From positions 1 through 42,021 of the forward strand of contig JAGOZL010000005.1 in the NCBI GenBank assembly GCA_018058685.1: DNA of 42,021 nt, written 5' to 3'. The notes beneath the pieces are model-generated. The model had not been told where the DNA came from. It saw only the letters and a list, made by a program, of their open reading frames with translations, and did not search any database. Shown here one piece after another: positions 1,035-39,972 of this stretch. Each line of letters opens with the position of its first letter. Positions within the stretch are counted from its first letter, which is position 1. Made by a program: the position numbers and the translations under genes. The DNA is from Sulfurospirillum sp. Its GTDB lineage: Bacteria > Campylobacterota > Campylobacteria > Campylobacterales > Sulfurospirillaceae.

Positions 1035-1044
1035 TTACATGTAA
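1035..1044. repeat. TTACATGTAA repeat, copy 1
   Basis: Exact palindrome over the last codons and stop of the PerM-like gene (TAC ATG TAA on the minus strand). Confidence 0.9.
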
Positions 1045-4379: not shown

Positions 4380-5116
4380 AACAACTAGTTGCCTATATTA
4401 CGGCAGGATTTCCTGATATTTCGTTTTCATTAGATGCAATTGCGGCTTTAAAAGAAGCAGGTGTTGATAAATTGGAGCTTGGCATTCCCTTCTCTGACCC
4501 TGTGGCAGATGGTCCTATTATTGAACGAGCCAATCTTGAGGCTTTGAATAAAGGCTTTAAGATGCAAACACTGTTTGATATCTCCACAGCCGTTGCTCCC
4601 ACGATTGAGACGTATTGGATGGGATATTTTAATCCTTTTTACAAAAAAGGTCTAGAGGCATTTGCCAAGCAAGCTTTTACATGTAACGCCAAAGGGTTTA
4701 TCATTCCAGATCTTCCTTATGAAGAGGCTGTGGTGTATGAACCATTGATGCAAGCCCATGATTTAGCGATGATTTCGTTTGTCGCACCCACAGATAGCAA
4801 AGAGCGTATTGCCAAAATCGTACCTCATGCAAAGGGATTTATCTATCTTGTAGCGTATGCAGGCATTACAGGTGCTCATGCGAGTGAGGATTTAACCAAA
4901 ACGATTGCTTTGATTAAAGAGCAGAGTCAAACACCATTATTTGTTGGTTTTGGGGTCAATGAAAAAACAGCTAAAGAGCGTGCTCGTGGTGTGGATGGTG
5001 TCATCGTTGGGAGTGCTTTGGTTGAAGTGATGTTAGATGAGAGTTTGAGCTTAAGTGAGCGTATTAAAAAAATTGCCCTTCGTGCTAAAACAATTAAAGA
5101 GAAAATTAATTCTTAA
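4376..5116 (+). CDS. trpA: tryptophan synthase alpha chain TrpA
   Basis: TrpA cleaves indole-3-glycerol phosphate to indole and glyceraldehyde 3-phosphate and passes indole to TrpB. The N-terminal YITAGFPD and LELGIPFSDPVADGP motifs are intact. Glu34 and Asp45 are the expected catalytic acids. GFIIPDLP, the GITG segment and VGFGV follow. At 246 residues it is somewhat shorter than the roughly 268 of E. coli. It starts with GTG at 4376, overlapping the TGA of the Hpt gene. trpB is not adjacent; trpA stands apart from any trp operon here. Its 3' end overlaps the convergent RND gene by 11 bp. It carries one TTACATGTAA copy (Phe-Thr-Cys). Confidence 0.95.
   Translation: MKQLVAYITAGFPDISFSLDAIAALKEAGVDKLELGIPFSDPVADGPIIERANLEALNKGFKMQTLFDISTAVAPTIETYWMGYFNPFYKKGLEAFAKQAFTCNAKGFIIPDLPYEEAVVYEPLMQAHDLAMISFVAPTDSKERIAKIVPHAKGFIYLVAYAGITGAHASEDLTKTIALIKEQSQTPLFVGFGVNEKTAKERARGVDGVIVGSALVEVMLDESLSLSERIKKIALRAKTIKEKINS
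4677..4686. repeat. TTACATGTAA repeat, copy 2
   Basis: Exact copy inside trpA, read as Phe-Thr-Cys. It shares the wider context CTTTTACATGTAACG with the copy at 1035. Confidence 0.9.
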
Positions 5117-11040: not shown

Positions 11041-11685
11041 ATGCCTTTACTTCGACTTGACAATATCGCCCATTCTTTTGAGTATCCCTTATTTGAAAAT
11101 GTTTCTATTGCTTTACATGTAAAAGAGTCTATGGCCATTTTAGGTGTAAGTGGCTGTGGTAAGTCAACACTTTTACATATCGGAGCAACCTTACTACAAC
11201 CTAAACAAGGTATTGTGACGATTTTAAATCAAAATATCTATCAACAAAACGAAGAGCGCAGACTTTCTTTAAGACGGTATGATGTTGGTATTATTTTTCA
11301 ATCCCACTATCTTTTTAAAGGTTTTTTTGCCAATGAAAACATTGAACTTGCTTCTTTAATTAGTGGAGAAGAGATGGATGAACGCATTTTAAAAAAGCTT
11401 GGTATCGAAAAGTTGATGCATCAAAAAATTGGTGATCTCTCAGGTGGACAACAACAAAGAATCTCTATCGCTAGAGTACTGGCTAAAAAACCTAAAATTA
11501 TTTTTGCAGATGAGCCCACAGGTAACTTGGACGATAAAACGGCGCATGAAGTGATGGATGTTTTACTTGAATACACTGAGGAAAATAGTGGTGCTTTATT
11601 GTTGGTAACGCACAATCAAAATTTAGCAAAAGCATGCACGTACGTAAGGCATTTGCATTTGGATGGTTTAAAAGAAGAGGCTTAA
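11041..11685 (+). CDS. LolD/FtsE-like ABC transporter ATP-binding protein
   Basis: This is a 214-residue stand-alone ATPase of the LolD/FtsE/MacB group. Walker A is GVSGCGKS (about 35-42), the Q-loop is IIFQSHYLF, the signature LSGGQQQR is near 135-142, and Walker B is KIIFADEPTGNLD with the NLD extension of this group, followed by the switch His in LLVTHNQNLA. No permease gene is next to it. The gene order (tsf, this ATPase, fliR) is kept in C. jejuni, where it is also an orphan. Lipoprotein release (LolD) is plausible but not proven. It carries a TTACATGTAA copy read as Leu-His-Val-Lys (residues 25-28). Confidence 0.9.
   Translation: MPLLRLDNIAHSFEYPLFENVSIALHVKESMAILGVSGCGKSTLLHIGATLLQPKQGIVTILNQNIYQQNEERRLSLRRYDVGIIFQSHYLFKGFFANENIELASLISGEEMDERILKKLGIEKLMHQKIGDLSGGQQQRISIARVLAKKPKIIFADEPTGNLDDKTAHEVMDVLLEYTEENSGALLLVTHNQNLAKACTYVRHLHLDGLKEEA
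11112..11123. repeat. TTTACATGTAAA repeat, copy 3
   Basis: Full 12-bp palindrome inside the ABC ATPase gene, read as Leu-His-Val-Lys. Confidence 0.9.
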
Positions 11686-11686
11686 G

Positions 11687-12460
11687 ATGGAATCACTCAT
11701 CAAAATGATCGGTGAAGATCAAGTCATTCTTTTCTTTCTTCTCTTTGCTCGCTTAAGTGGTCTTTTTGCATTTTTCCCTTTTTTTTCACATGGAAATATT
11801 CCAATTTCACTCAAAACGGCGATTACTCTTTTTATGGTGATATTTCTTTTTCCCTTATTACCTCCTTTACATGTAAAACCGACACTCGCCTTTCTAGCTT
11901 TAGCCATCAGTAGTGAACTGCTTATAGGATTTATTGCTGGGCTTTTTTTGAGTATTGTTTTTGCTATTTTACAGCTTGCGGGGATGCAAATATCGTTTAT
12001 TATGGGATTTACGATGGCAAATGTCATTGACCCTCAAACAAGTACAGCAATTCCATTGATGTCGCAATTACTTTCGTTGATTGGTTTGATGATTATTTTA
12101 GCCTTCAATGGTCACCACCAAATGCTCTTGTTTATCTCAGAATCCCTGCACGTTTTACCGTTAGGAACTTTTTATCCTCAAGAAAATATCATACTCTATT
12201 TGGCAAAAGCGGTTACGGGTATGTTTGTCTATGGATTTATTCTCTCTTTCCCTGTAGTGGCTTTTTCGCTTCTGTTAGATGTTGTTTTTGGAATGCTGAT
12301 GAAAACGATGCCACAATTTAACCTTTTGGTCGTAGGATTTCCTATCAAGATAGGTGTTTCTTTTGTTGTTTTAATGGCTACACTCGCTTCAATGATGCTT
12401 ATTTTTAAAAAAGAATTTTTGGAGGCGATGAATCATTTGACCCTTCTTTTTGCGCATTAA
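11687..12460 (+). CDS. fliR: flagellar export apparatus protein FliR
   Basis: FliR is an inner-membrane part of the flagellar type III export gate, forming the core with FliP and FliQ. The 257 residues hold about six membrane helices. The N-terminal LLFARLSGLFAFFPFFSHGNIP and the conserved GMQISFIMGFTMANVIDPQTST segment identify the family. It starts one base after the ATPase stop, with AGAGG as its ribosome binding site. No other flagellar gene is adjacent, as in Campylobacter where flagellar genes are scattered. A TTACATGTAA copy encodes Leu-His-Val-Lys near residue 61. Confidence 0.95.
   Translation: MESLIKMIGEDQVILFFLLFARLSGLFAFFPFFSHGNIPISLKTAITLFMVIFLFPLLPPLHVKPTLAFLALAISSELLIGFIAGLFLSIVFAILQLAGMQISFIMGFTMANVIDPQTSTAIPLMSQLLSLIGLMIILAFNGHHQMLLFISESLHVLPLGTFYPQENIILYLAKAVTGMFVYGFILSFPVVAFSLLLDVVFGMLMKTMPQFNLLVVGFPIKIGVSFVVLMATLASMMLIFKKEFLEAMNHLTLLFAH
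11866..11877. repeat. TTTACATGTAAA repeat, copy 4
   Basis: Full 12-bp palindrome inside fliR, read as Leu-His-Val-Lys. Confidence 0.9.
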
Positions 12461-14591: not shown

Positions 14592-14603
14592 TTTACATGT
14601 AAA
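14592..14603. repeat. TTTACATGTAAA repeat, copy 5
   Basis: Full 12-bp palindrome in the tatA leader, between the predicted transcription start and the binding site. Confidence 0.9.
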
Positions 14604-19314: not shown

Positions 19315-19848
19315 TTAACTGTTGTAGTAGGCTTGAACTTCGTTGCGGATGGCTTGGGGAATAAACATCTCATCAAACGATTCACGAAGCTTTGTAGAGC
19401 TGATATTAACATGAATTGGTAAAATTTTCAAGTCCTCGGGGTATGAGCGCGTAGAGCGTGTAGCAACAACGTATTCAACCAAAGAAGAAAGCTCTTCATA
19501 ACGACGCCATAAAGGAAGTGTTGCATATGCATCGCTTCCCATAATAAGATAGATATGTGCTTGCGGATATAAGTGTTTTACATGTAAAACGGTTTCGATG
19601 GTTGGAACTTGCCTGTGTTGGTCGCACTCATAGGAGAGAACTTTTGTTTTAGGTGTTGATGCAAATATCTTTTGAAGCCACTCAAGACGTAATGCAGGAG
19701 GTGCGCTAAAAGTCTCTTTAAAAGGACTTAGAAAAGTTGGAACCACAAAGAGTTGTTCAATCTCAAGCATTTCTAAGGCTTTTTCGACAATTTTCTTATG
19801 CCCAATGTGCGGTGGATCAAACGAGCCTCCAAAAATCGCTATGTTCAA
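19315..19848 (-). CDS. nadD: nicotinate-nucleotide adenylyltransferase NadD
   Basis: NadD makes deamido-NAD from nicotinate mononucleotide and ATP. The nucleotidyltransferase signature GGSFDPPHIGH (residues 7-17) and the later ISSTKLRE motif (SSTxLR) are intact in 177 residues. The start is TTG at 19848 (MNIAIFGG), supported by the strong AGGAG just upstream. It carries a TTACATGTAA copy read as Leu-His-Val-Lys. It is divergent from gapA. Confidence 0.95.
   Translation of the reverse strand: MNIAIFGGSFDPPHIGHKKIVEKALEMLEIEQLFVVPTFLSPFKETFSAPPALRLEWLQKIFASTPKTKVLSYECDQHRQVPTIETVLHVKHLYPQAHIYLIMGSDAYATLPLWRRYEELSSLVEYVVATRSTRSYPEDLKILPIHVNISSTKLRESFDEMFIPQAIRNEVQAYYNS
19577..19588. repeat. TTTACATGTAAA repeat, copy 6
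   Basis: Full 12-bp palindrome inside nadD, read as Leu-His-Val-Lys on the minus strand. Confidence 0.9.
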
Positions 19849-19928: not shown

Positions 19929-20927
19929 ATGGCACTCAAAATTGCTATAAATGGATTTGGTCGCATTGGAAGATGCGTTGCTAGAATTATAGATTCACGT
20001 GATGATGTTGAGCTTGTGTGCGTGAATGACACGGCTGATCGTGCTATGACAAAACAATTACTAAAATATGATAGCGTTCATGGTATTTTCCCCGGAAGTG
20101 TAGAATTTTTAGAAGATGATTATATGCAAATGGGAAAAGCAAAAGTAAAAATGTTTTCAACCCGTGATCCTAAAGCACTCAATTTTCAAGATTATGGCGT
20201 GGATGTTGTTTTGGAATGTACAGGTGCATTATTGACACAAAAAGATGCGCAAACCTTCATTGACAATGGCATCAAACGTGTAGTGATGTCAGCACCTGCT
20301 AAAGATGACACACCAACATTTGTTATCGGTGTAAACGAAGATAAATATGCAGGACAAGCCATCGTTTCTAATGCAAGTTGTACAACCAACTGTTTAGGAC
20401 CGGTTGCTAAAATCTTAGATGATGCCTTTGGTATCGATAAAGGTTTAATGACCACCGTGCATGCGTATACCAATGACCAAAATATTTTAGATGTGAAACA
20501 CTCAAAAGATTTACGCCGTGCGCGTGCAGCAGCTGTCAATATGATTCCTACAACCACAGGGGCTGCTAAAGCAATCGGTTTAGTGCTTCCACACCTCAAA
20601 GGTCGTTTACATGGACAGAGTGTGCGTGTTCCAACGCCAAATGTTTCTATGGTTGATTTAAACGTTGTGGTTAAAAAAACAACGACAAAAGAAGAAGTAA
20701 ATGCACTCTTTACACAAGCATCCCTTGGGTATTTAAAAGGTATCTTAGAAGTGGATGTTGAGCAACGTGTTTCGTCTGATTTTGTCACGAGCACATGGAG
20801 TTCAATCGTAGCAAGTGATTTGACGCAAGTTATTGGTGGGGATATGATTAAGGTAATGGCATGGTATGACAATGAGTGGGGATATTCAACTCGTTTGATT
20901 GACATGGCTTTACATGTAAGCAAATAA
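19929..20927 (+). CDS. gapA: glyceraldehyde-3-phosphate dehydrogenase
   Basis: GAPDH interconverts glyceraldehyde 3-phosphate and 1,3-bisphosphoglycerate. The Rossmann start INGFGRIGR (8-16), the NAD-selecting Asp34 and the active-site SNASCTTN with Cys151 are all present in 332 residues. The motif after it, [11 protein letters not shown], is canonical. It opens the operon with pgk and tpiA; in Campylobacter these run mainly in gluconeogenesis. The C-terminus reads ALHVSK, encoded by a TTACATGTAA copy just before the stop. Confidence 0.98.
20910..20919. repeat. TTACATGTAA repeat, copy 7
   Basis: Exact copy at the 3' end of gapA, read as Leu-His-Val before Ser-Lys-stop. Confidence 0.9.
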
Positions 20928-22142: not shown

Positions 22143-23686
<1,544 letters not shown>

Positions 23687-24657: not shown

Positions 24658-24807
24658 ATGAAGTACATAGTTTCATTTCTCATGATTGCATTGTTCAGTG
24701 GCTGTGCGACGTGGGGTGGTATCAAAAAAGATGCAAGCGATGGTGCTGAATGGACAAAAGAGAAAATCAATAAAGGTGCGGAGTACGTTAAAGAAAAAAC
24801 TGAGTAG
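24658..24807 (+). CDS. small entericidin-like lipoprotein
   Basis: The ATG directly follows the permease stop and codes for 49 residues. A short signal peptide ends in a lipobox (LFSGC, Cys16), then comes CATWGGIKKDASDGAEWTK and a Lys/Glu-rich helix. Length and pattern resemble the entericidin EcnA/EcnB lipoproteins, which have a Cys, a Gly-rich turn and an amphipathic helix. Membrane localisation follows from the lipobox; a toxin or envelope-stress role is inference. The paired-repeat hairpin after it may end the whole operon. Confidence 0.75.
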   Translation: MKYIVSFLMIALFSGCATWGGIKKDASDGAEWTKEKINKGAEYVKEKTE

Positions 24808-24813
24808 GAAGAG

Positions 24814-24823
24814 TTACATGTAA
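24814..24823. repeat. TTACATGTAA repeat, copy 9
   Basis: Left arm of the hairpin between the lipoprotein gene and nusA. Confidence 0.9.
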
Positions 24824-24837
24824 AGCCTCGAATGGCT

Positions 24838-24847
24838 TTACATGTAA
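24838..24847. repeat. TTACATGTAA repeat, copy 10
   Basis: Right arm of the same hairpin. Confidence 0.9.
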
Positions 24848-24855
24848 CGATACAA

Positions 24856-25980
24856 TTATAATCCGCCGAAAAGGTTTTTTAACGCATTTGGATCACGACT
24901 TGGTTGATCATCTTTTGTTGAATCGTCTGCATTGACAGCAGCTCCTCCTGATTCAACAAGTTCTATCTCAAATCCAGACAACATGCTGGTTAGGCGAATA
25001 TTGATACCACTTTTTCCGATAGCTTTTGATTTTTGATCACTTGGAAGCGTGACAATAGCTTTGCCATTTTGAATTTTGACATTTGAGATAATAGCAGGGC
25101 TAAGTGCTCTAGCGATAAAAATTTCAGGGATATTAGAGTATTCGATACAATCAATATTTTCATCACTGAGCTCTTTACTGACCGCATTGATTCTCACTCC
25201 TCGTGTTCCAACGGTTGCGCCAACTGCGTCGATATTTGGATGCAAAGACATCAAAGAGATTTTTGCTCTCTCCCCAGGGATGCGTGCACTTCCTACGATT
25301 TTGATTAAACCGTCTTTGATTTCAGGAACTTCAAGTTCCAATAAGGATTCTAAAAATTTAGGACTGGTGCGTGAAAGCTCTACATAGATACCTTGTGACT
25401 TATCAATCATCACTTTACGAATAACACTTTTAACCACATTGCCCACTTTAAATTTTTCGCCCTTAATGCGGTTTTTACGAGGCAATACGGCTCTGATTTC
25501 ATCGATTTCGATATAGGTATTTTCATCGTTATCAATTCTCACAACACTTCCAAAAACCGTTTTGCCCACAAGTTTTTGGTATTTATCAAAAATATTGGTT
25601 TCTAAAAGTCGTTGAATGTGATACTCTAGCTCTTTTTGTAAGGTAGCCGCTGCAGTACGTCCAAGGTTGTCCAAAGGAAGCTCATAAGTCAGTTCATCTC
25701 CAATCTCAATATCAGGATCAACCTCTTTAGCCTCTTTGATGGCGATAAAATTCTCATTGCCATCCAAAAGTCGTTCATCATCAGGGCTGACAACAATCAC
25801 TTTTTGATACAATTTTAAACTTTTTGTAGCAGGATCGATTTCAGCACCGTATTCGTACTGATTGCCGTAAACTTTTTTTGCTGTTTTTACCAAGGCTAGT
25901 GTAACAGTGTTACGTACTTCAAGAATGTCAAGCCCTTTTTCATGAGCAATAGATTCGATAATGTCTACAATTTTTTCCAT
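24856..25980 (-). CDS. nusA: transcription termination/antitermination factor NusA
   Basis: NusA binds RNA polymerase and nascent RNA and modulates pausing, termination and antitermination. From the ATG at 25980 (MEKIVDIIESIAHEKGL) there are 374 residues: the N-terminal polymerase-binding domain (about 1-125), S1 domain (about 135-200), and two KH domains, the second with AIGKSGINIRLTSML. The C-terminal acidic repeats of E. coli are absent, as is usual here. AAGGA precedes the ATG. rimP and infB are not adjacent, unlike in many bacteria. Confidence 0.96.
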   Translation of the reverse strand: MEKIVDIIESIAHEKGLDILEVRNTVTLALVKTAKKVYGNQYEYGAEIDPATKSLKLYQKVIVVSPDDERLLDGNENFIAIKEAKEVDPDIEIGDELTYELPLDNLGRTAAATLQKELEYHIQRLLETNIFDKYQKLVGKTVFGSVVRIDNDENTYIEIDEIRAVLPRKNRIKGEKFKVGNVVKSVIRKVMIDKSQGIYVELSRTSPKFLESLLELEVPEIKDGLIKIVGSARIPGERAKISLMSLHPNIDAVGATVGTRGVRINAVSKELSDENIDCIEYSNIPEIFIARALSPAIISNVKIQNGKAIVTLPSDQKSKAIGKSGINIRLTSMLSGFEIELVESGGAAVNADDSTKDDQPSRDPNALKNLFGGL

Positions 25981-27784: not shown

Positions 27785-28400
27785 AGCGAATCGTCGCAAA
27801 CTTTTGGCGTGGATTTTGCCACCCATTATTTATGTCTTTATAAAGCTTCTATACTTTACATGTAAAAAAAAGTTCCATATCAAAGAGAATGGCTCCATAA
27901 CACCTAGTATCTACGCTATTTGGCATGGGGAACTTTTGATGGTGGCTTTTGCGTATGCGTATTACTCTAAGCGACAAAAAATTGATACCATTGTGAGTCA
28001 GCATTTTGATGGGGAGCTAGTTGCGCGTCTTTTTAAGCTTTTTGGAGGGGGTGTTTTACGAGGCAGCTCTTCCAAAGGTGGAAAAGAGGTCTTAAGATTA
28101 GCCCTTCGTTCTTTAAAAGAGGGACGTGATATTGGTATTACCCCAGATGGTCCAAGAGGTCCAAGGCATAGTGTTGCTCATGGTCTTGTCACCATGGCGA
28201 AGCTTCAACACGTTCCTATTATTACAATGAATTGTAATGCTTCTCATTTTTGGAAGATGCGCAGTTGGGATCAATTTTGCATTCCAAAGCCTTTTAGTAC
28301 ATTAGAGTTTTATTTTGGGGACCCTTTTTATGTGGATGACCTTTCTCTTGAAGAAGGCATTGCTTTGGTCAAGGAAAAGCTACTAGAACATGCGCAATAG
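27765..28400 (+). CDS. LPLAT/DUF374 family acyltransferase
   Basis: This 211-residue protein matches the lysophospholipid acyltransferase-like DUF374 family. It has a basic N-terminus with one hydrophobic segment ([18 protein letters not shown]), a catalytic-type His at 54 in AIWHGELL and the conserved TPDGPRGPR block. Family members transfer acyl groups to lipid A precursors or lysophospholipids at the inner membrane; the substrate here is unknown. Its start is inside miaB (20-bp overlap), so translation is coupled. One repeat copy encodes Phe-Thr-Cys-Lys (31-34). Confidence 0.85.
27855..27866. repeat. TTTACATGTAAA repeat, copy 11
   Basis: Full 12-bp palindrome inside the acyltransferase gene, read as Phe-Thr-Cys-Lys. 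Confidence 0.9.
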
Positions 28401-30631: not shown

Positions 30632-31586
30632 GAAAGATACCTTTTTTATAAAGATAAGGGCGTATTTTATGAGGGATACGTGCACATCGACAGAGCTCTT
30701 TAAATGATTTATCCATAGTGTCTGTACAAAAAGGAGCTACATAAATAGCACCATCGCTGTAACATACAGCCACTTTACCTCCAACAACACAATCATGTGT
30801 ACGCAGTATCTCTTGGCGCTGTGCATAAGAGGCGACGATACCTAGTTTTTTTAATGCTTTATCAATGGAGCGAATATTTAAAAGTTCATCATTTGCTTGT
30901 TCAATGATAAAAAGTTCTTCTATGTGCTTCATCGCTTTTGGTAATAAACGTTTGGCATCTTCTTCAAGATAGTCAAAACTTTTAGCAATCCCTGAGGCAT
31001 AGGTTTCAATAAGCTTTGAGGCATGATGGTGACGAAAGTAATTTCGCACGTACGTTTCTTCATCATTACTCTCATCATGAAAATAGGTGATATTTCTTTC
31101 ATTCAGATAGTGAAGCAAAGAGGTTTTATTGAGATGCAATAAAGGGCGAATAAGCATATATCCCTCTTTTTCTTCCATCTCTTGCATCCCAAGCAGTTCA
31201 ACCACTCCAGCTCCTTTGCACAGCTGCATTAAAAGCCATTCCAATCTATCCCCCAAATGATGCGCACTTAAAAGTGTGTCGTACTCTTTTTCTTGAATGA
31301 CGCGTTCAAAAAAGGTGTAGCGAGCATGGCGAGCATTGTGTTCAAAGTTTTTAGGTGAGAGGTTACATGTAAAAATAAAAGCTTCTTTTTGATAGTTCTT
31401 TGCTAATGCTCGTGCGTACTGCTCTTCGGCGTTACTTTGTGCTCTTGTTTGGTAATTGACATGGGCAATATCAAAAGGAATGCCGTGTTCAAGCAGTAAA
31501 AAAAACAAGGCGGTAGAGTCTCCACCGCCTGAGAATGCGAGTAAATTTTTACGGGTTTTTAGATAAGAAAGCGTTGCTTCATGCAA
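30612..31586 (-). CDS. tilS: tRNA(Ile)-lysidine synthetase TilS
   Basis: TilS converts the wobble C of tRNA-Ile(CAU) to lysidine so that it reads AUA. The PP-loop SGGGDST is near residue 18 of the protein as I start it. [24 protein letters not shown] and the [19 protein letters not shown] stretch follow. The frame extends upstream into rimO. The TTG at 31586, overlapping the rimO TGA by 8 nt, is my choice (324 residues); a TTG at 31607 is the other option. A TTACATGTAA copy encodes Phe-Thr-Cys. Confidence 0.92.
31363..31372. repeat. TTACATGTAA repeat, copy 12
   Basis: Exact copy inside tilS, read as Phe-Thr-Cys on the minus strand. Confidence 0.9.
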
Positions 31587-35000: not shown

Positions 35001-35010
35001 TTACATGTAA
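35001..35010. repeat. TTACATGTAA repeat, copy 13
   Basis: Exact copy directly upstream of the binding site of the gene at 35022. Confidence 0.9.
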
Positions 35011-37868: not shown

Positions 37869-38350
37869 CGAGGCTCAAAAATCCCTTTTTCTCTGTTTTT
37901 GTAGATGCGTGTGTGTTCAAGTGTAACGCCATGCATACTGATAAAAATCCCTTTTTCTTCTCTTACATGTAAATCCCCAAGCGCAAACATAAAGTTCGCT
38001 GTTGCCTCAACCGTATCGATGCTAAAAGGCACCATAGCGCCTGTGAGAAAGATGGTTTTATCCTTTACATGTAAATCCAAATACGAAGCTGTAATATCCA
38101 TTGTATCGGTTCCATGAACAATGAGAATTTTATCTGAGGCGTGGTTTTGAATGGTTTTTAACATCAGCGCTCTATCATCCTCATTCATCTCCAAACTGTC
38201 TTTATGAATGATAGCTTTAAGCGTATAGGGCGTGTTGTAGCAGTAGCGTAGTATTGACTCAAGGGCAATGTTGTCTTTAGGAACTTCAAGTTCGCCTTTT
38301 AAAGGATTGTAATGCTTGTTAAAGGTGCCACCCGTGTTGATAATCAGCAT
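37865..38350 (-). CDS. half-length asparaginase-like protein
   Basis: The 161 residues match only the N-terminal domain of type I/II asparaginases (normally about 330). The two key motifs are present: INTGGTF at about 4-10, with the catalytic-type Thr, and VHGTDTMD near 79-86. FLTGAMVPF follows. There is no second domain downstream; the 3' end abuts the EI24-like gene. It may be a single-domain family member, widespread in Campylobacterota, or a relic. Catalysis is doubtful, because residues of the second domain help complete the active site. It starts 2 nt after dnaX. Two TTACATGTAA copies lie in it. Confidence 0.8.
   Translation of the reverse strand: MLIINTGGTFNKHYNPLKGELEVPKDNIALESILRYCYNTPYTLKAIIHKDSLEMNEDDRALMLKTIQNHASDKILIVHGTDTMDITASYLDLHVKDKTIFLTGAMVPFSIDTVEATANFMFALGDLHVREEKGIFISMHGVTLEHTRIYKNREKGIFEPR
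37963..37972. repeat. TTACATGTAA repeat, copy 14
   Basis: Exact copy inside the asparaginase-like gene, read as Leu-His-Val-Arg. Confidence 0.9.
38064..38075. repeat. TTTACATGTAAA repeat, copy 15
   Basis: Full palindrome inside the same gene, read as Leu-His-Val-Lys, 102 bp from copy 14. Confidence 0.9.
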
Positions 38351-38352
38351 AG

Positions 38353-39972
38353 TTAGACCTTAGGATGAATTTCGATTTTACGAGGCTCAAACAACTCTTG
38401 CGCTTTTTGGATAAAAGGGTCGTTTAAAATCTCTTTGACATCGATTTCTCGCTCTTTTGCCATCATCGTTCCTGTTGCACAGCTTTCACTTTGCGGTGTT
38501 TCAAACTCAAGACTTTCAATCATCGAAGCACTTTCATTGAAACTTTGCATATCAGGGAGTGAAGACTCTTCTTGGATGAGTGGCTCAAGATTTTTAACGA
38601 TGTCAATTTTAGTCTCTAGCCCAAAAACTTCTTGCACAAAATGCTTGATGATGCCTGAGTTGTGTTTCAAAATGGTACTGTCATCATCTTTTGCACTGGA
38701 TTCGAGTCGTAAAATATGCTCTTCAAACGCTAAAAAAGTGATATTTTTTTCAAAACAATTTCCAAGCTCTACATTGCGGTCTTTGAGTTTGGCACACAGT
38801 TTTGTAAAAAGCTCTTTATCGTTTCGCTTCACAACAGGCTGAGCGCTTTCATGGATGGGCGTCTCTTCTAAGGGTTGTGCTTTTACATGTAAAGAGGATA
38901 TGGGGATGCGAAATTTCTCACTCTCCAAAGAGTCAATCATCTCTTCGATGCTCTTAATGTGTGTTGCCTCAACCATTTTGAAAAAGACTAAAGAGAGTAC
39001 AAAGCCATTGTTCGCGTTGATATGCAATAAACTTTTAGCTTCACTCAAAATCTTAAAAAAGCGCTCATATAAAAGGGTTGAAAAGCGTCTGTCTTGTTCA
39101 AAGAAAGCGTTTTTAAGGTAGACGATCAGTTCATCAATGACCACTTCACACTCATAACTTTCAAGCTCTTTGATAAGGCTTAGAAGTTCATGGCGATGAC
39201 TTCCTAAAACAGCCGCAAAGATACGCTCTAATTGTGTGGGGTCAAGAAGTCCCAACATTGTAGCCACGCTACTTGGTGTGATGAAGCCTTTAGAATAAAT
39301 GATGGCTTGATCCATGAGGGTGAGTGTGTCTCTCAAAGAGCCATTTCCCGCTCGGCTTAACATCTCCAACGCCTCTTTTTCATACCCTACATTTTCCAAA
39401 TGCAAAATGTGACAAAGGTGATTTACCACATCGCTGTTTTTAATCTGTTTAAAACGAAAATGCTGTGTGCGCGAGAGAATCGTCGCTGGAAGTTTTAGTG
39501 GGTCGGTTGTCGCTAGGATAAATTTAACATAAGGCGGCGGCTCTTCAAGCGTTTTTAAAAGCGCATTAAACGCTTGGGTCGTGAGCATGTGGACTTCATC
39601 GATGATGAAAATCTTAAAACGCGCCATATTAGGTTTGTATTTGGTGCTTTCAATCAGTTCACGTATATCGTCAATCCCACGATTGGATGCCGCGTCCATT
39701 TCGATGATGTCGATATGACGGTTTTCATTTGCACTCAAACAATGCTCACACGTTTCGCATGGGGTTGATGTTGGACCTTTTTCACACACTAAGGCTTTTG
39801 CAAAAATACGAGCTGTTGAGGTTTTTCCACTGCCACGAAGCCCTGAAAAGAGGTAGGCATGAGAGAGTCGCTCTCCGGAAAGAGCGAGGCTTAAGGTCTG
39901 AACAACAGCCTCTTGTCCGATGAGTTTATCAAAACTTGAGGGGCGGTATTTTAAAGCGAGGACGTGTGTCAC
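38353..39972 (-). CDS. dnaX: DNA polymerase III gamma/tau subunit
   Basis: DnaX is the clamp-loader ATPase. The 539 residues include Walker A GLRGSGKT (44-51), the zinc Cys of the N-domain (Cys63, 72, 75, 78), the Walker B stretch IFIIDEVHML and the EEPPPYVKFILATTDPLKLPATILSRTQHFRF segment. The C-terminal part after about 370 is a shorter tau-like region. The start is GTG (39972). It is preceded by rho, 11 nt away. I see no clear programmed frameshift signal to make gamma. Confidence 0.95.
   Translation of the reverse strand: MTHVLALKYRPSSFDKLIGQEAVVQTLSLALSGERLSHAYLFSGLRGSGKTSTARIFAKALVCEKGPTSTPCETCEHCLSANENRHIDIIEMDAASNRGIDDIRELIESTKYKPNMARFKIFIIDEVHMLTTQAFNALLKTLEEPPPYVKFILATTDPLKLPATILSRTQHFRFKQIKNSDVVNHLCHILHLENVGYEKEALEMLSRAGNGSLRDTLTLMDQAIIYSKGFITPSSVATMLGLLDPTQLERIFAAVLGSHRHELLSLIKELESYECEVVIDELIVYLKNAFFEQDRRFSTLLYERFFKILSEAKSLLHINANNGFVLSLVFFKMVEATHIKSIEEMIDSLESEKFRIPISSLHVKAQPLEETPIHESAQPVVKRNDKELFTKLCAKLKDRNVELGNCFEKNITFLAFEEHILRLESSAKDDDSTILKHNSGIIKHFVQEVFGLETKIDIVKNLEPLIQEESSLPDMQSFNESASMIESLEFETPQSESCATGTMMAKEREIDVKEILNDPFIQKAQELFEPRKIEIHPKV
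38882..38893. repeat. TTTACATGTAAA repeat, copy 16
   Basis: Full palindrome inside the C-terminal part of dnaX, read as Leu-His-Val-Lys. Further 9/10 matches lie at 7492, 17319 and 33024. Confidence 0.9.

Follow-up and report, generated by a model that had tools for sequence, protein, structure and literature searches.

A palindromic 10-mer with uptake-sequence-like features forms an inverted pair between convergent genes in Sulfurospirillum

Self-DNA recognition at uptake by a short over-represented motif has been stated only for the Neisseriaceae and the Pasteurellaceae (PMC12616744). The uptake sequences of these families (DUS and USS, respectively) show pairing of copies with a tail-to-tail bias, dialects and depletion from islands (PMC1852404, PMC3630211, PMC7371117), and the hairpins formed by Neisseria DUS have long stems with few T residues in the tail (PMC1852404). 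Campylobacter jejuni, by comparison, uses a Cts-type system for DNA uptake and transformation (PMC10046745) and tells self DNA by methylation (PMC8468864). Uptake sequences have not been reported from the Campylobacterota, the pattern so far being one of self-DNA tags in Neisseria and Haemophilus. A literature search covering open-licence papers, such that an earlier mention elsewhere is possible, returned no relevant paper on the 10-mer described here, TTACATGTAA, and none linking Sulfurospirillum to uptake sequences; reports of natural transformation in Sulfurospirillum were likewise looked for, and none turned up.

Among these systems, TTACATGTAA resembles the DUS of the Neisseriaceae in occurring as hundreds to thousands of exact short copies, in having dialects across the family that keep a common core, in forming inverted-pair hairpins between convergent genes and in being depleted on foreign elements (PMC3630211, PMC1852404, PMC7371117); the hairpin studied here also has a long stem with few T residues in its tail. 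It differs in that DUS are directional 10-12-mers whereas TTACATGTAA is a palindromic 10-mer with a CATG core, in that it occurs in another phylum, and in that the receptor is known in the Neisseriaceae (ComP) but putative here. In density it is also similar to the USS of the Pasteurellaceae, which likewise have AT-rich flanks, paired copies at gene ends and variants among clades. USS are directional and carry AT tracts on one side, whereas the flank preference of TTACATGTAA is symmetric. The cyanobacterial HIP1 is likewise a highly iterated palindrome, found genome-wide and infrequent in certain lineages (PMC4390886). The RAATTY motif methylated by CtsM in C. jejuni offers a parallel within the same order, as it serves a T2SS/T4P-type machine to recognise self DNA at the first step of uptake (PMC8468864); there, however, what marks the DNA is the methylation of a short, common motif, whereas the mark proposed here is an over-represented 10-mer.

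The stretch of DNA analysed (the window; 42,021 nt) contains a 48-nt gap between a small lipoprotein-like ORF (24658..24807, forward strand; 49 aa, no Pfam match) and the convergent nusA gene (24856..25980, reverse strand), which was named in the initial annotation and whose product is 82-89% identical to Sulfurospirillum homologues, its closest matches. A hairpin element fills this gap, beginning 5 nt beyond the ORF end at 24807 and lying 7 nt from the nusA stop codon, which starts at 24856. The initial annotation had described a perfect 15-bp inverted repeat here with a 6-nt loop and a palindrome in each arm, and this description holds: at 24813-24848 two 15-nt arms (24813-24827, GTTACATGTAAAGCC; 24834-24848, GGCTTTACATGTAAC) are 100% complementary across a 6-nt loop, and each contains the 10-letter palindrome TTACATGTAA (24814..24823 and 24838..24847). 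Because the unit is palindromic, any two copies constitute direct and inverted repeats at once, and the informative part of the repeat is the pairing outside the 10-mer, namely AGCC/GGCT on the inner side and G/C on the outer side. Folding of the element was compared with that of shuffled sequences, giving z = -5.7 for the forward strand and -5.2 for the reverse strand, with no shuffle equally stable. Of the features of a Rho-independent terminator, the stable stem-loop is present and the U-tract directly after the stem is absent on both strands (CGATACAATTAT on the forward strand, CTCTTCCTACTC on the reverse strand); a terminator scan did not call the site. Because the U-tract is missing, terminator activity can only be suggested, although from position and conservation we reasonably infer that the hairpin blocks read-through between the convergent genes. 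The further proposal that the palindromic arms permit alternative cruciforms appears weak, since the loop needed by a lone 10-bp palindrome would leave it with a stem that is too short.

The window holds 16 copies of TTACATGTAA where 0.06 would be expected. Beyond the focal pair, single copies were located by motif search at 1035..1044, 4677..4686, 11113..11122, 11867..11876, 19578..19587, 20910..20919, 22755..22764, 31363..31372, 37963..37972, 38065..38074 and 38883..38892, together with two intergenic copies at 14593..14602 and, by the gene calls used, 27856..27865, and one at 35001..35010 that precedes a start codon by 11 nt and whose 3' flank gives AAAAGGA. The whole draft genome (1.82 Mb, 157 contigs) contains 840 copies and none of the reversed control sequence, and in a 951-kb sample TTACATGTAA was the most over-represented 10-mer, with 451 copies against 1.97 expected (229-fold). 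The favoured extended form, CTTTACATGTAAAG, is symmetric. Most one-mismatch variants occurred at or below expectation in this sample, apart from CTACATGTAA (23x), GTACATGTAA (5x) and a handful of weak cases. A scan of IMG/VR with CTTTACATGTAAAG gave matches that were unrelated and mostly single. Two tetranucleotides, GATC (935 versus 4104 expected) and CCGG (163 versus 595 expected), were strongly avoided in the 951-kb sample.

Normalised for length, TTACATGTAA was enriched 26-fold in convergent gaps, 5-fold in co-directional gaps and 2.6-fold in divergent gaps, and in convergent gaps it mostly lay 2-15 nt from a stop codon (genes were called with a simple custom script, so that small errors at gene ends are possible). 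The motif was present in 29 of the 58 convergent gaps of 10-300 bp, 11 of the 58 holding at least two copies. Pairs spaced 13-35 nt apart numbered 29 in the 951-kb sample against ~4.5 expected (~6-fold); across the whole genome there are 32 close pairs, such that the pair beside nusA is not the only one of its kind, and 23 of the 32 sampled pairs were situated in convergent or co-directional gaps. Complementarity also extends inward from the motif, for the inner arms of pairs match over a mean of 1.94 bp, compared with 0.80 bp when the same flanks are re-paired (maximum of 2000 shuffles, 1.38).

The nusA hairpin is conserved throughout the genus. At the 3' end of nusA, ten relatives retain two copies of TTACATGTAA around an inner stem that has varied (e.g. 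AGCG/CGCT or AGC/GCT). Stem pairs 11, 13 and 14 vary on both sides while mostly remaining paired, a pattern of compensatory change, and in three relatives (L040, L041 and L043) the same hairpin is built from the dialect TTTACATGTAG..CTACATGTAAA. In one further relative (L042), the motif pair gives way to an unrelated perfect hairpin, beside which lies a single motif copy. Because the stem covaries and the dialect rebuilds the hairpin, selection acts on the nusA hairpin as a structure and on the motif as a sequence. The parallel with paired DUS and USS drawn in the initial annotation thus survives at genome scale, in the excess of pairs, the bias towards convergent gaps and the covariation of this hairpin.

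Genomes of Sulfurospirillum carry 49-1496 copies of TTACATGTAA each. In the sister genera g2, g3 and g5 there are up to 733, with 29-107 in two g5 genomes, while counts are low in genus g4 (7-23) and amount to 0-6 in other families of the order. Dialects occur within this range: in S. cavolei (G021), TGACATGTAA and TGACATGTCA (TKACATGTMA) stand at positions that hold TTACATGTAA in others, G025 uses CTACATGTAR, and G026 has 389 copies of YATCATGATR, which is found at background counts in other genomes. Common to all dialects seen is the CATG centre. Across six Sulfurospirillum genomes, motif 10-mers were identical in 79% of comparisons versus 19% for neighbouring 10-mers (ordered pairs, which are non-independent). 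Sites that differ between species show mostly substitutions and almost no indels, and an origin of the copies as insertion elements was rejected. In one complete genome (G008) the motif is nearly gone (49 copies) and no replacement 10-mer was detected in 180 kb; the counts of CTACATGTAAA and TGACATGTCA are too low for either to be a full replacement in G008, G010 or G020. Motif density is 0.04-0.2/kb on plasmids versus ~0.45-0.55/kb on chromosomes, two ~39-kb S. diekertiae plasmids holding 4 copies each and pSulSP holding 2 to 10 per 50 kb.

Two observations were made in passing on these replicons and dialects. The plasmid pSulSP (L327, L328) contains two copies of a ~45-kb cassette (~54-97 kb and 100-143 kb) that carries reductive dehalogenase and norcobamide genes and is bounded by identical IS21 elements, and both cassettes hold identical motif copies. 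In the S. cavolei sample (L246, L277-L282), the 10-mers GACTTTAGGA and CGCTAATATC are also over-represented, at ~12-13 copies in 140 kb, and are possibly a CRISPR or other repeat.

We favour an explanation in which TTACATGTAA serves as an uptake-type self-DNA tag in the Sulfurospirillaceae, with a probability that we place at about 0.5, because its copy number, 3'-end pairs, dialects, site conservation and scarcity on plasmids match those of DUS and USS and because relatives encode ComEC and a Cts-type cluster. According to this model, the competence machinery would include a DNA-binding receptor with a preference for palindrome-bearing DNA. Uptake and recombination would therefore favour tagged alleles, and copies would build up wherever the sequence is permissive. 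Facing copies in convergent gaps, as between the lipoprotein gene and nusA, would then be co-opted as a long RNA hairpin, either preventing read-through or defining both transcripts at their 3' ends. A new uptake-sequence-like system of this type appears moderately likely. The more specific proposal of a system independent of those in Neisseriaceae and Pasteurellaceae, based on a CATG-centred palindrome with dialects and on a receptor within a Campylobacter-type Cts machine, is more tentative and falls slightly short of even odds.

The genes for such a machine are present in relatives. These encode ComEC, pilins and a cluster of T2SSF, T2SSE, AAA ATPase and secretin genes, the order of which presumably matches that of the C. 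jejuni cts genes. The draft genome from which the window comes (86% complete) encodes T2SSF and a homologue of a 119-aa cluster gene, and gave no ComEC match. Copy number, inverted pairs in convergent gaps, family-wide dialects, depletion on plasmids and transformation machine genes are thus all shared with DUS and USS systems. Loss of the motif together with competence genes, which is typical of those systems though not strictly defining, was not seen: G008 retains ComEC, the Cts-type cluster and four pilin-type genes, so that its motif loss accompanies the loss of none of them. Because this association is missing and receptor-driven uptake, the defining feature, is only putative here, we file TTACATGTAA as uptake-sequence-like rather than as a proven uptake sequence, and do not claim membership of the DUS or USS.

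Two pilin-like genes adjoin priA near comEC (L315:13362-14336 in G007; L314:12686-13678 in G008), the same setting as that of the C. jejuni competence gene cj0683 (PMC10046745). The C-terminal domain of one of them, the priA-adjacent pilin, is hypervariable even within one species, whereas flanking genes are mostly 80-96% identical, and it differs in G008, where the motif is nearly lost. It was rejected as the motif reader, since it also differs between G007 and G019, which share the motif, and between the two S. diekertiae-type genomes G016 and G023. Several observations stand against the uptake tag. G008 is poor in the motif and keeps the machinery, the palindromic form sets the motif apart from DUS and USS, and the priA-adjacent pilin failed as a candidate reader. 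Near-miss copies are few, although drift in a drive motif ought to generate them. The literature search that turned up no natural transformation in Sulfurospirillum and the missing U-tract after the hairpin also count against it. If the tag explanation is correct, the Sulfurospirillaceae would be the third family with motif-based recognition of self DNA at uptake and the first palindromic case. The spread of such tags and their shifts of dialect could then be tested independently in a different phylum, and for this the family supplies closely related genomes that have the motif, use another dialect or have almost entirely lost it. Such a system would also provide a handle for the genetics of Sulfurospirillum, which is used in the dechlorination of polluted groundwater.

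The placement of copies within genes bears on the alternatives. By number, 311 of the 451 sampled copies (69%) are coding, and they are read as TTA CAT GTA (201) or NTT ACA TGT AAN (103); the third frame would yield a stop codon and is used by only seven copies, each of which exactly ends its gene. Density is lower in the genes with the highest coding scores (0.15 versus 0.61 per kb between the extreme fifths, the motif itself slightly affecting the score). A predominantly coding, genome-wide distribution would suit an iterated palindrome of the HIP1 kind, in which the palindrome is under selection from an orphan methyltransferase that recognises a CATG centre and is linked to repair or replication timing, with no part in uptake. 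The perfect palindrome and the CATG centre in every dialect seen point in the same direction, HIP1 being likewise palindromic with a centre that is read by methyltransferases (PMC4390886). Against this, CATG outside the motif occurs at 0.7 of expectation and so receives no special treatment, and the D12 methyltransferase family has no member in three motif-bearing genomes, G017 (934 copies), G009 and G020; its absence from the motif-rich G017 excludes it as a required partner. TTACATGTAA further differs from HIP1 in its strong 3'-end and inverted-pair bias, with no methyltransferase linked to it. HIP1 is not known to form inverted pairs at gene ends, and this also counts against an explanation that we consider unlikely.

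The symmetry of the motif could instead reflect binding by a dimeric protein that organises the chromosome or regulates genes globally, with pairs acting in looping or as roadblocks at gene ends. Two-fold symmetry with symmetric favoured flanks, near-invariant recognition with few point variants, and the S. cavolei dialects, which alter both half-sites at single loci, would all be expected of such a site. Known organiser sites (matS, parS, SlmA), however, are far sparser than the ~0.46/kb observed here, two thirds of the copies lie within genes in two reading frames, and the motif is depleted on plasmids. Moreover, pairs are extended by inner stems that vary yet remain complementary, which points away from two protein sites and towards a structure in RNA or in a single strand. 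We consider this explanation unlikely as well.

That TTACATGTAA is solely a terminator building block, present because pairs form hairpins, would account for the conservation of the nusA hairpin, its substitution by an unrelated hairpin in L042 and the enrichment at gene 3' ends, but is largely refuted by the single coding copies and is very improbable, as only ~64 of the 840 copies are in close pairs, 69% of the sampled copies are singles within genes, and sites that are mostly single are conserved far above their flanks.

A separate observation concerns gene starts. The 3' flank of the motif (AAAGGA or similar) is found 9-20 nt before start codons at L110:7383, L101:13687, position 35001 of the window and others, where it may double as a Shine-Dalgarno sequence.
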